From the NCBI RefSeq assembly GCF_001485475.2, contig NZ_DF977000.1:186001-250000 (forward strand): 64,000 nucleotides of DNA. The letters run 5' to 3'. Source of the stretch: Tepidanaerobacter syntrophicus. GTDB lineage: Bacteria; Bacillota; Thermosediminibacteria; Thermosediminibacterales; Tepidanaerobacteraceae. Each line of letters begins with the position of its first letter. Positions within the stretch are counted from its first letter, which is position 1. The position numbers and the translations under genes are program-made. The notes beneath the pieces were generated by a model. The model did not search any database. It was not told the DNA's origin and was given only the letters and a program-made list of their open reading frames with translations. Below are positions 13,118 through 54,874 of this stretch, piece after piece.

Positions 13118-14880
13118 TATTCTTCACCCACCCTTTCAATGGCATCAAACCTGCATACCTGTTTGCAAAGGGTGCATCCGTTGCAGGAACTCTGATCTAT
13201 AGATATTATTCCGTTTTTAAAAGATATAGCAGGACATCCTATCCTCAGACACATCTTGCATTTTGTGCATTTTTCCGGAACTACCTTACATTTTAAGTTC
13301 GCTCTTTCCCTTTGAACTTCCTTCAGCAGAGCGCAGGGCCTCTTTGAAACAATTACGAAGGGTTCATTAGCATCATAGGCTTTTTGAAGCACTTCTTGAG
13401 TTTCGGCAAGATTGTAAGGATCTATGACCTTTATATTTTCATCCTTAACTCCCACGGCTTTTGCAATCTGCACCACATCCACGGGAGGAACTTTTTCACC
13501 GCTTAAAGTCACGCCTGTACCGGGATTCGGCTGGTGTCCGGTCATAGCCGTAGTTCTATTGTCAAGTACTATCATGGCAATATTGCTTTTGTTGTAAACA
13601 GCATCTACAAGGCCTGTAATCCCTGAATGGAAAAAGGTGGAATCCCCAAGGCATCCAAAAACTTTCGTATTTTTTCCCGCCTGTTTAAAAGCTTTGTCAA
13701 ACCCTATTCCGGCAGAAAAACCGGCTCCCATGCAGATCATGGTATGGGCCGAATCAAGGGGAGGCATAGCACATAAGCTGTAGCAGCCTATGTCGCTTGT
13801 TACAACTATATCCTTGAATTTTTTTAGAGCATAAAATATTCCTCTGTGAGGACATCCGGCACAAAGCACCGGCGGCCGTGCAGGTATTGATACGTCCAAA
13901 GTGTATGTGCTTCTGGTTTTTTCGGGTTTTAGTGCTTTTTCAATGATTTCCGGATTAAGCTCATCACATATTGGAAAAACTTCTTTACCTATACATTTAA
14001 TGCCTAAAGACTTAACAAATGTTTCAAGGTATGGATCGTTTTCCTCAATAACATAGAGAGTATCTACACCATCTGCAAATTCCTTGATGAGCTTTGCGGG
14101 AAGGGGATAACTAAAGCCAATCTTTAAATAGGAGGCGTCATCACCCATAACTTCCCGGGCATGCTGATAGGAAATGCCGCTTGTGATAATGCCTATCTTG
14201 CGATTTCCCCATTCTATTCGATTTAAGGGAGATCTGTCGCTGTACTCACGAAGTTTTGCAAGTCTTTCTTCAACCACATAATGCTTTAGTTTGCCAAAAG
14301 CCGGAATCATGCAGTTTTTCTTTGCATCTTTTTTATATTCTTTAACTCCCGGATCATTACGAACTCCAGGTGTAACGAGGGATTTGCTGTGGCACACCCT
14401 TGTAGTTGTCCTTAGCAGGACAGGTGTGTCGTATTCTTCACTTAACTCAAATGCAAGTTTGGTATAGTCCAGGCATTCCTGACTGTCTGAAGGCTCCAGC
14501 ATTGGCACTTTCGCATGTAAGGCATAGTAGCGGTTGTCTTGCTCGTTCTGGGAACTGTGAAGTCCCGGATCATCTGCAGTAACAATTACCAAACCTCCGT
14601 TTACTCCTGTATAAGACAGAGTAAAAAGCGGATCTGAGGCAACATTTAAACCCACGTGTTTCATGGCTGCTAAAGCTCTTGAACCTGAAATAGCCGCTCC
14701 GCCGGCGACTTCCACTGCTACCTTTTCATTTACAGACCATTGAGAATATATTTCTTTGTAATTAGCTATATTTTCTAGTATTTCAGTGCTGGGAGTGCCG
14801 GGGTAAGCTGCTGCTACACGGCATCCTGCTTCATAGGCTCCGCGGGCAATAGCTTCGTTGCCTGTCATTATCTCTTTCAA
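13117..14880 (-). CDS. iorA: Indolepyruvate:ferredoxin oxidoreductase, alpha subunit
   Basis: TPP- and Fe-S-dependent catalytic subunit, 587 aa. N-terminal pyrimidine-binding domain starts at TGNEAIARGAYEAGCRVAAAYPGTPSTEI; the TPP-binding domain includes CPHRG and GDSTFFHSGITGL with the conserved Asn-containing IAMIVLDNRTTAMTGHQPNPG. The C terminus carries two ferredoxin-type 4Fe-4S motifs (CTKCKMCLRIGCP and CNGCTLCKQVCRF). I chose the TTG at 14880, which has GGAG eight bases upstream and gives a normal N terminus; earlier in-frame codons add unconserved sequence. The long leader carries a strong hairpin and DnaA boxes. Confidence 0.95.
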   Translation of the reverse strand: MKEIMTGNEAIARGAYEAGCRVAAAYPGTPSTEILENIANYKEIYSQWSVNEKVAVEVAGGAAISGSRALAAMKHVGLNVASDPLFTLSYTGVNGGLVIVTADDPGLHSSQNEQDNRYYALHAKVPMLEPSDSQECLDYTKLAFELSEEYDTPVLLRTTTRVCHSKSLVTPGVRNDPGVKEYKKDAKKNCMIPAFGKLKHYVVEERLAKLREYSDRSPLNRIEWGNRKIGIITSGISYQHAREVMGDDASYLKIGFSYPLPAKLIKEFADGVDTLYVIEENDPYLETFVKSLGIKCIGKEVFPICDELNPEIIEKALKPEKTRSTYTLDVSIPARPPVLCAGCPHRGIFYALKKFKDIVVTSDIGCYSLCAMPPLDSAHTMICMGAGFSAGIGFDKAFKQAGKNTKVFGCLGDSTFFHSGITGLVDAVYNKSNIAMIVLDNRTTAMTGHQPNPGTGVTLSGEKVPPVDVVQIAKAVGVKDENIKVIDPYNLAETQEVLQKAYDANEPFVIVSKRPCALLKEVQRERANLKCKVVPEKCTKCKMCLRIGCPAISFKNGIISIDQSSCNGCTLCKQVCRFDAIERVGEE

Positions 14881-17234: not shown

Positions 17235-17536
17235 GCCCCGCCCCAAAGTAAGGGGCGAGGCATTCTCGCGGTACCACCCAAATTCGCCTGGTTAAAGGCC
17301 TTTGCCAAGTACGGGAATAAAGTAAATGGACAGGCTTTCAGCCACTATTCCGATACCTGAAGGATTATAACGGTCCTTCACCGCAGTCGTCTACATATCG
17401 ACGACCAAACTCCGGGGCCATCTTCAGCAAGGTCTTCGGCGCCGGCTTTCACCTTTTCCGGCTCTCTTTAGGCCTATTCTGCTTGCTTACTCTTCCCTTC
17501 ATAGTCTTTCTCGCTCAATTGCACGAATTAATAAAA
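17235..17536 (-). promoter_or_regulatory. Met-specific T-box riboswitch upstream of metG
   Basis: Minus-strand leader contains the T-box consensus TGGGTGGTACCGCG (17280-17267) followed by a terminator (17261-17235: CCTCGCCCC, loop, GGGGCGGGG, CTTT). Stem I elements AGAGAGC and GGAG(T) are present. The specifier is read as ATG at 17421-17419 in the context CTGAAGATGGCC, matching the downstream metG. Uncharged tRNA-Met should stabilise the antiterminator. Confidence 0.9.
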
Positions 17537-52643: not shown

Positions 52644-53507
52644 ATGTCAGATTCAGATAAAGGTGTACTATATCTATGTCCCACTCCAATTGGAAATCTT
52701 GATGATATAACGTTTAGAGCCTTAAATGTTCTAAAGGAAGTAGACCTTATAGCCGCCGAAGATACCCGGGTTACAATAAAATTATTAAACCACTTTGAAA
52801 TTAAAACACCGCTTACAAGTTATCATGAACACAATAAAATTTCAAAGGGTCCAAAACTCATTAATATGTTAAATGAAGGCAAAAGCATTGCCCTTGTGAC
52901 AGATGCCGGCACCCCGGCTCTTTCAGACCCCGGAGAAGATTTGGTTCAAGATGCCATAAAAGAAAAAATTAAAGTTGTTCCTCTTCCCGGAGCAGCAGCG
53001 GCTGTATGCGCTTTAGTCGCATCAGGTCTTTCCACAAGGCGCTTTGCTTTTGAAGGCTTTTTGCCTTTAAAACAAAAAGAAAAAAGGGAGTTCCTTACGA
53101 AAATCGTGGAAGATGAAAGAACATTGATATTCTACGAAGCACCCCATCGTATAGTAAAAACCCTTAAAACTTTATTTGACATCTTTGGAAACAGAAAAAT
53201 TGTTATCGCTCGAGAGATGACTAAAATCCATGAAGAATTTATACGAGGCACCATAGGAGAGATTATAGAAAGATTTGAGGCATCTACTCCTAAAGGCGAA
53301 ATGGTCTTAGTGGTTGAGGGTTTTACACCTTGCAAAAGCCCATCTGAGAGCGCAAAAGCAGACGAAGATGAGCTAAAAGCTTCCCTTCAATCGATTATTA
53401 AAGAAGAAATGTCTAAAGGCTTTACAAAAAACCAAGCCTTAAAAAGAGCGGCAAAACAAGTCGGTGTTTCAAGAAATGAGGCATATGAAATTTTAATAGA
53501 AAAATGA
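52644..53507 (+). CDS. rsmI: 16S rRNA (cytidine1402-2'-O)-methyltransferase
   Basis: Adds the 2'-O-methyl group to C1402 in the 16S decoding centre. 287 aa. Tetrapyrrole-methylase fold: LCPTPIGNLDDITFRAL, AEDTR, the TDAGTPALSDPG SAM site and LPGAAAAVCALVASGL; C-terminal HTH-like end KNQALKRAAKQVGVSRNEAYEI. GGAGAG precedes the ATG. Conserved neighbour of abrB/metG in Firmicutes, but metG is 34 kb away here. Confidence 0.95.
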   Translation: MSDSDKGVLYLCPTPIGNLDDITFRALNVLKEVDLIAAEDTRVTIKLLNHFEIKTPLTSYHEHNKISKGPKLINMLNEGKSIALVTDAGTPALSDPGEDLVQDAIKEKIKVVPLPGAAAAVCALVASGLSTRRFAFEGFLPLKQKEKREFLTKIVEDERTLIFYEAPHRIVKTLKTLFDIFGNRKIVIAREMTKIHEEFIRGTIGEIIERFEASTPKGEMVLVVEGFTPCKSPSESAKADEDELKASLQSIIKEEMSKGFTKNQALKRAAKQVGVSRNEAYEILIEK

Positions 53508-53792
53508 CAGGCCTTCCATCTTTTATCGATATAAGATAAGCTGCTAAATATTCTAGGATATGATGTAAATCAAAAACCAACACATCAGTATTTATGAAGG
53601 AAATACCTGTTTGAACAGCTGGCTTTGCCATGTGATACCTGACAAAGTAGAAAGTCTTTCAAGGTGAATGATCTTTCTTTGAACAGCTTAATATTCTTCA
53701 TTATTAAGATCTATAGAAAACGTATAATACCGAGTTCGGCAGGTAAATTCACCGAAGTTGGAATTCGCCTGTTTTATAAGTAGCAAGCTCAC
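53508..53792 (+). other. Noncoding stretch upstream of the proC promoter
   Basis: About 285 bases after rsmI with no supportable gene, followed by the proC leader. Some short frames are present but have no ribosome binding site. No repeat recognised. Confidence 0.5.
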
Positions 53793-53956
53793 TTGACACT
53801 TTACTAGATAGTATTATAAAATATTATTTAATCACAAAAGTCCTTAAAGCACCTAACGGCGCAGAGGAAAGGTGCGGTACCAAAATTCAAGCATTTGACC
53901 AAGAAATCAAGACGGCAAGCAACGACCTTTCGTCCTCTCACGGCGGAAGGTTTTTT
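53793..53956 (+). promoter_or_regulatory. proC promoter with riboswitch-like transcription attenuator
   Basis: TTGACA (53793), 16 bases, TATAAA (53815). The transcript can form GCACCT/AGGTGC (53849-53875) or an alternative AGAGG-AAAGGT (53863-53873) with ACCTTT..CCTCT (53925-53938). The latter excludes a 10-bp terminator (53925-53951) followed by TTTTT. Three mutually exclusive helices are the logic of a riboswitch or T-box. The T-box-like GGTGCGGTACC (53871-53881) departs from consensus and stem I is missing, so I leave the class open. Confidence 0.6.
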
Positions 53957-54031
53957 ATACTTGATAATGTTCTATGTCAAGATATTTTTATAGAAAATCA
54001 AAAATCAGCGCAAGCGATGGGAGGAAAGTAA

Positions 54032-54874
54032 GTGCAAAACCATAGAACCATAGGAATATTCGGAGCAGGATCTATAGCAGTTGCGATGCTAGATGGTATT
54101 TTAAGCCAGAATATAATAAATCCTGAAGATATATATGTAACAAACAAGCAAAATGATGAAAAACTTCAGGTCCTTAGGGAGAAATATAATGTTCATACAA
54201 CAAGGGACTATAAGGAAATATTGTCAAATTGCAGATATCTTATAATTGCCGTAAAACCAATAGATATTGATAATCTGCTAAAACAGCTCAAAAATGATAT
54301 AACTGATAATCACATTATAATTACCCTTGCAGCAGGAGTTGCAACAAGCTATGTAGAAGATGCATTAGGCAAAAAAATACAGGTTATTAGGGCAATGCCC
54401 AATACAGCATGCAAAGTAAGAGAATCAGCTACGGCAATAGCTTTAGGGCGATATGCCAAAGAAGAGGCTAGAAATTTTGCAGAGGAAATATTTTCTTCGG
54501 TAGGTAAAGTATCTATAGTAGAGGAAGACATGATGGATGCAGTGACAGGGCTTTCAGGAAGCGGTCCTGCCTATGTCTATTTGCTGATGGACGCTTTAAT
54601 AGAGGCAGGGGTTAAGGCAGGTATCCCTCGTCCGCTTTCTGAAGAGCTTACAGTGCAGACAGTGTATGGAGCGGCAAAAATGGTAGTCGAAACCGGACAG
54701 TCCCCTTCTAAACTGCGCAGCGAGGTCACAACGCCTGGTGGCACAACTATGGCAGGGATGAAAGTCTTGGAAAATGCAGACTTTATCGGCCTAATAGTCA
54801 AAACAGTTGAAAGCGCTGCCAAAAGATCCGCTGAGATGATGCAAGAACGCAATTCCAAGTGTATAGTCGAGTAA
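54032..54874 (+). CDS. proC: Pyrroline-5-carboxylate reductase
   Basis: Reduces P5C to proline with NAD(P)H. 280 aa, GTG start with GGGAGGA eight bases upstream. Rossmann GIFGAGSIAVAML, VIRAMPNTACKVRESATAI, VTGLSGSGPAYVYLLMDALIEAGV and the C-terminal VTTPGGTTMAGMKVLE are all typical. P5C is also the product of HypD ten kb away, so ProC could complete reductive hydroxyproline use (Stickland acceptor side). Own promoter, leader and terminator. Confidence 0.96.
   Translation: MQNHRTIGIFGAGSIAVAMLDGILSQNIINPEDIYVTNKQNDEKLQVLREKYNVHTTRDYKEILSNCRYLIIAVKPIDIDNLLKQLKNDITDNHIIITLAAGVATSYVEDALGKKIQVIRAMPNTACKVRESATAIALGRYAKEEARNFAEEIFSSVGKVSIVEEDMMDAVTGLSGSGPAYVYLLMDALIEAGVKAGIPRPLSEELTVQTVYGAAKMVVETGQSPSKLRSEVTTPGGTTMAGMKVLENADFIGLIVKTVESAAKRSAEMMQERNSKCIVE

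Follow-up and report, generated by a model that had tools for sequence, protein, structure and literature searches.

The proC gene of Tepidanaerobacter syntrophicus is preceded by a short leader in which a promoter, several possible hairpins and a terminator follow each other, and this arrangement raises the question of whether the leader is a new riboswitch or a variant of a known RNA switch. An earlier note on this DNA had described it as an uncharacterised riboswitch of attenuator-like design, partly resembling a T-box but without stem I and the T-box motif, and had suggested a covariance search with T-box models and a comparison of proC leaders in relatives as checks. Both were carried out, starting from the window, i.e., the whole stretch of 64,000 nucleotides that was analysed and to which all positions refer. 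The leader, which is known from one genome only, is probably a vestigial T-box: a T-box-derived RNA that has lost its sensor and would permit proC expression by passive read-through.

The proC Locus and Its Terminator

The intergenic span between the end of rsmI (position 53507) and the GTG start codon of proC (54032) holds a promoter, an intrinsic terminator and a tail (Table 1), and all three had been correctly described before. Promoter-like sites occur six times in 800 bp, compared with 3.5 expected. The tail between terminator and GTG comprises about 75 nt and carries a ribosome-binding site upstream of the start codon. The promoter can be aligned with the proC T-box promoter of the sister species (L047 and L048) and the tail with the sister-species tail, both being short stretches for which significance was not computed. 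An inverted repeat followed by TTTTAT is located 3' of rsmI (53738-53775, + strand) and likely constitutes the rsmI terminator; thus, proC would rely on its own promoter. The proC gene is intact and the sole proC match in the genome, and the presence of proB and proA shows that the rest of the proline pathway is there.

Table 1. Positions of the features of the proC leader and gene within the window.
Feature	Position	Strand	Remarks
proC promoter, TTGACA-18-TAAAAT	53793..53822	+	Matches the consensus at 11 of 12 positions; sigma-70-like, strong
Leader core	53830..53923	+	Site of stem I, stem II, IIA/B, stem III and T-box motif in relatives; diverged
Minimum-energy-fold hairpin	53841..53868	+	53841-53845 predicted to pair with 53864-53868; occludes a portion of the antiterminator strand
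Possible antiterminator, 5' strand	53863..53873	+	11 pairs with 53925-53938
AGGTGcgGTACC	53870..53881	+	Perhaps a remnant of the T-box motif AGGTGGTACC, longer by two bases; edit distance 2
Intrinsic terminator with T run	53924..53957	+	Hairpin 53924-53952; 5' strand CCTTTCGTCC corresponds to the 3' antiterminator strand of T-box relatives
proC, pyrroline-5-carboxylate reductase	54032..54874	+	280 amino acids, GTG start; 75-77% identity with sister species

The terminator hairpin consists of 11 pairs (-13.6 kcal/mol) and shares 84% identity over 38 nt with the terminator of the L050 T-box (E 7.6e-6); an equivalent terminator is intact in all T-box relatives. One trait of T-boxes is therefore present in T. 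syntrophicus, namely a 3' antiterminator strand that overlaps an intrinsic terminator homologous to T-box terminators.

The terminator is also overlapped by a 32-codon frame with a TTG start (53895-53993), which could in principle point to attenuation by a leader peptide, with ribosomes stalling at proline codons. This frame contains a single proline codon and lacks an obvious ribosome-binding site; proline codons are absent from the other + strand frames. As a proline-codon-rich frame is lacking, leader-peptide attenuation was rejected as highly improbable.

Proline T-Boxes Upstream of Orthologous proC Genes

The comparison of proC leaders in relatives showed that the orthologues carry proline T-boxes. 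A T-box is located directly upstream of the orthologous proC in both other Tepidanaerobacter species examined (77-79 bits) and, again directly upstream, in three additional family genomes (83-97 bits). At 17 of 24 proC loci sampled from the class, an unaltered AGGTGGNACCGCG motif occurs together with CCC (proline) as the specifier codon; the position of the specifier was assigned visually, with the Val, Ile, Met, Ser, Phe and Leu leaders found in the T. syntrophicus genome as a guide. The window contains neither. Six more of the 24 loci likewise lack the motif, and for five of these (L051, L052, L053, L059 and L062) R1, a model built from 16 proC T-boxes, gave no match in the locus.

Compared with the proline T-boxes (RF00230) in front of proC (L047-L050, L054 and others), the T. 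syntrophicus leader is alike in its gene, position, promoter, CCTTTCGTCC-type terminator and tail. It differs in its length of about 130 nt, as opposed to roughly 280 nt in the relatives, in the absence of stem I, the CCC specifier and AGGTGGNACCGCG, and in staying below any Rfam score. A proline T-box that had moved elsewhere was sought in the T. syntrophicus genome (2,427,925 bases in 9 pieces) and not found, although 15 other T-boxes are present there; likewise, no T-box was found near proBA. One of the 15, a full T-box with ATG at the place of the specifier (108.6 bits), lies within the window upstream of metG (17248-17511, - strand).

In the T-boxes of the sister species, situated some 280 nt upstream of proC at L047 and L048, the AG bulge reads ACAGAA, the distal loop reads CCAAAAGG, and the specifier is preceded by four additional bases. 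Their distal stem I motifs look degraded, as if erosion had started before the species split.

T-box control of the last gene of proline synthesis is known from other bacteria. In Bacillus, T-boxes control proBA and proI, and the last proline-synthesis gene is under a tRNA-Pro T-box (PMC3858371, PMC13198045), a trait shared with the presumed ancestor of the T. syntrophicus leader. The Bacillus leaders are intact and use CCU, whereas in T. syntrophicus the sensor is gone and no T-box was found near proBA. Degenerated T-boxes have also been noted earlier (Wels et al.). Taken together with the T-boxes of the relatives, these known systems largely explain the T. syntrophicus leader as a variant, and a would-be orphan riboswitch becomes the likely remnant of a known one.

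The Diverged Core and Its Predicted Folding

The covariance search returned no T-box at the leader: neither at the gathering score nor at E values up to 10 did Rfam give a T-box match or any fitting family, and the covariance score for RF00230 is below the gathering cut-off. The PyrR-binding attenuator (RF00515) has a similar layout of anti-antiterminator, antiterminator and terminator; it was ruled out, since its match, at 16.8 bits (E 6.8), stays below the cut-off of 54 and proC is not a pyrimidine gene. R1 covers the leader from end to end, compressing 177 model positions into 29 nt of the core, and scores 18.2 bits, as compared with 178.7 bits for a held-out intact leader; most of the 18.2 bits appear to be supplied by the terminator. 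Another weak match to the proC T-box model (17 bits) is present in the window at 13605-13674 (+ strand), where T-box features are not evident by eye, and is probably a chance match.

Between promoter and terminator, the core gives no significant direct alignment with intact T-boxes. Visual inspection links portions of it either to the IIA/B region and stem III of L047 or to L049 stem I, but these readings conflict. Therefore, no T-box part is assigned to individual bases, and the proposed descent is argued from the terminator, the flanking sequences, the gene itself and the situation in relatives. A divergent core would also be expected if the T-box had been replaced by an unrelated insert or recombinant with its own middle part, and promoter and terminator together would delimit an RNA of about 125 nt, perhaps a free-standing small RNA. 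Replacement is nevertheless unlikely, because alignments with the sister species are possible on both flanks (promoter and tail) and the terminator belongs to the T-box type, so that an internal deletion with divergence requires fewer steps; in addition, no homologous RNA was found in the class.

The defining parts of a T-box were sought individually, and their absence agrees with the earlier description of the leader as partly T-box-like. The best match to a specifier site has 5 mismatches, and R1 skips most of stem I. For the discriminator motif AGGTGGNACCGCG, which contacts the tRNA acceptor via the UGGN bulge, the best match also has 5 mismatches and is located outside the leader. The similarity of AGGTGcgGTACC to the motif is equalled in 65 of 2000 shuffles (3%), which makes its reading as a scar of the T-box motif suggestive only. 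If AGGTGcgGTACC formed an altered bulge, uncharged tRNA-Pro, or any uncharged tRNA, could stabilise the antiterminator even without stem I, and the leader would be a reduced T-box that still works. The retained terminator and the position of AGGTGcgGTACC beside the pairing partner of the T-box-type terminator strand are compatible with this idea. It is very unlikely, however, given the lack of a specifier and of any T-box motif within 5 mismatches, and given that the predicted antiterminator has its motif-like bases either paired or outside, leaving no bulge that faces the NCCA end. Moreover, a review describes stem I as obligate and the discriminator as essential in T-boxes (PMC7583486).

When relatives and 26 genomes of the class were searched at the DNA level for leaders homologous to this one, only the terminator emerged as a common element and no similar leader was found. 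As a consequence, no covariation is measurable, and the conserved aptamer with covariation across homologous leaders that would mark a new metabolite riboswitch was not found in these 26 genomes.

The earlier note had also drawn three mutually exclusive helices. The pairings are possible, but a switch between them is not confirmed. In the predicted ensemble, the terminator dominates (P = 0.99), while the candidate antiterminator, with its 11 bp around a 3-nt bulge, has P = 0.008, and the proposed sequestering helix (53849-53875, GCACCT/AGGTGC, 6 bp) has P = 0.015; the predicted fold prefers the minimum-energy hairpin of Table 1 over the latter. Once the 3' part of the terminator is removed, the leader is no more structured than its shuffled versions (z = -0.40), and for the whole leader the folding z is -1.35. 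When the upstream part was shuffled and the terminator strand kept fixed, an equally strong antiterminator appeared in 7% and an equally strong masking hairpin in 14% of the shuffles; both appeared together in 1.1% (22 of 2000), approximately the expectation under independence. Because the helices were picked after looking, these shuffle statistics count as weak evidence.

These data also bear on the idea that a re-tuned attenuator was recently born from the T-box, in which proline, P5C, a protein or another signal operates the switch and the terminator has been kept. Besides the terminator, the three drawable helices and the joint occurrence of both strong helices in so few shuffles speak for such a device. 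Yet that frequency is just the yield of two independent chance helices chosen in hindsight, and the leader has no excess structure, no homologues and no Rfam relative, hence no covariation, which makes re-tuning quite unlikely. In summary of this comparison, the alleged riboswitch stands where orthologous proC genes have full proline T-boxes, and neither a conserved ligand-binding domain nor homologous leaders nor covariation were found for it. It has the appearance of an evolutionary relic of a known switch, or of a plain leaky terminator, and not of a novel riboswitch class. The case is a reminder that a riboswitch requires more than a promoter, hairpins and a terminator that the eye can pick out.

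Proposed Read-Through Without a Sensor

For the vestigial T-box that is favoured here, we infer as ancestor a transcriptional T-box of roughly 280 nt with a proline (CCC) specifier, a type of leader that its congeners and the majority of the class have retained. Deletion and divergence would then have stripped stem I, stem II, the specifier and the discriminator (T-box) motif, while promoter, terminator and tail were retained. Transcription would still start at the old promoter and, lacking the tRNA-binding part, stop at the terminator by default. Passive read-through could result from leakiness of the terminator and from the tRNA-independent antiterminator (53863-53873/53925-53938), which may form briefly before the terminator is completed. 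A response to tRNA is unlikely, since the obligate stem I and the essential discriminator are absent. The output of proC would consequently be low, roughly constant, ligand-independent and unresponsive to proline starvation.

The computed energies rank the antiterminator 4.4 kcal/mol above the terminator fold, compared with 8.4-14.8 kcal/mol in intact relatives without tRNA, an approximate comparison as the segment lengths differ. A gap of 4.4 kcal/mol fits a leader in which most transcripts are terminated and some read-through occurs without a ligand. That it is smaller than in the relatives could be a product of chance, considering the 7% of shuffles with an antiterminator of the same strength. 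As a counterpoint, a strong terminator that outlasts its sensor should be costly for proC expression, and a pure relic could have been expected to shed it.

The proC leaders of this class offer a natural series that leads from intact proline T-boxes, the predominant state in the class, via the eroded distal stem I of the sister species to the sensor-less leader of T. syntrophicus, with the motif being lost in other relatives as well. Such a series can be used to test how a regulated gene outlives the loss of its RNA sensor while the terminator persists. Within one genus, the proC T-box is present at L060 (genome G018) and absent at L062 (G013), where an apparent 3' half of the terminator remains; by sequence comparison, this looks like an independent loss.
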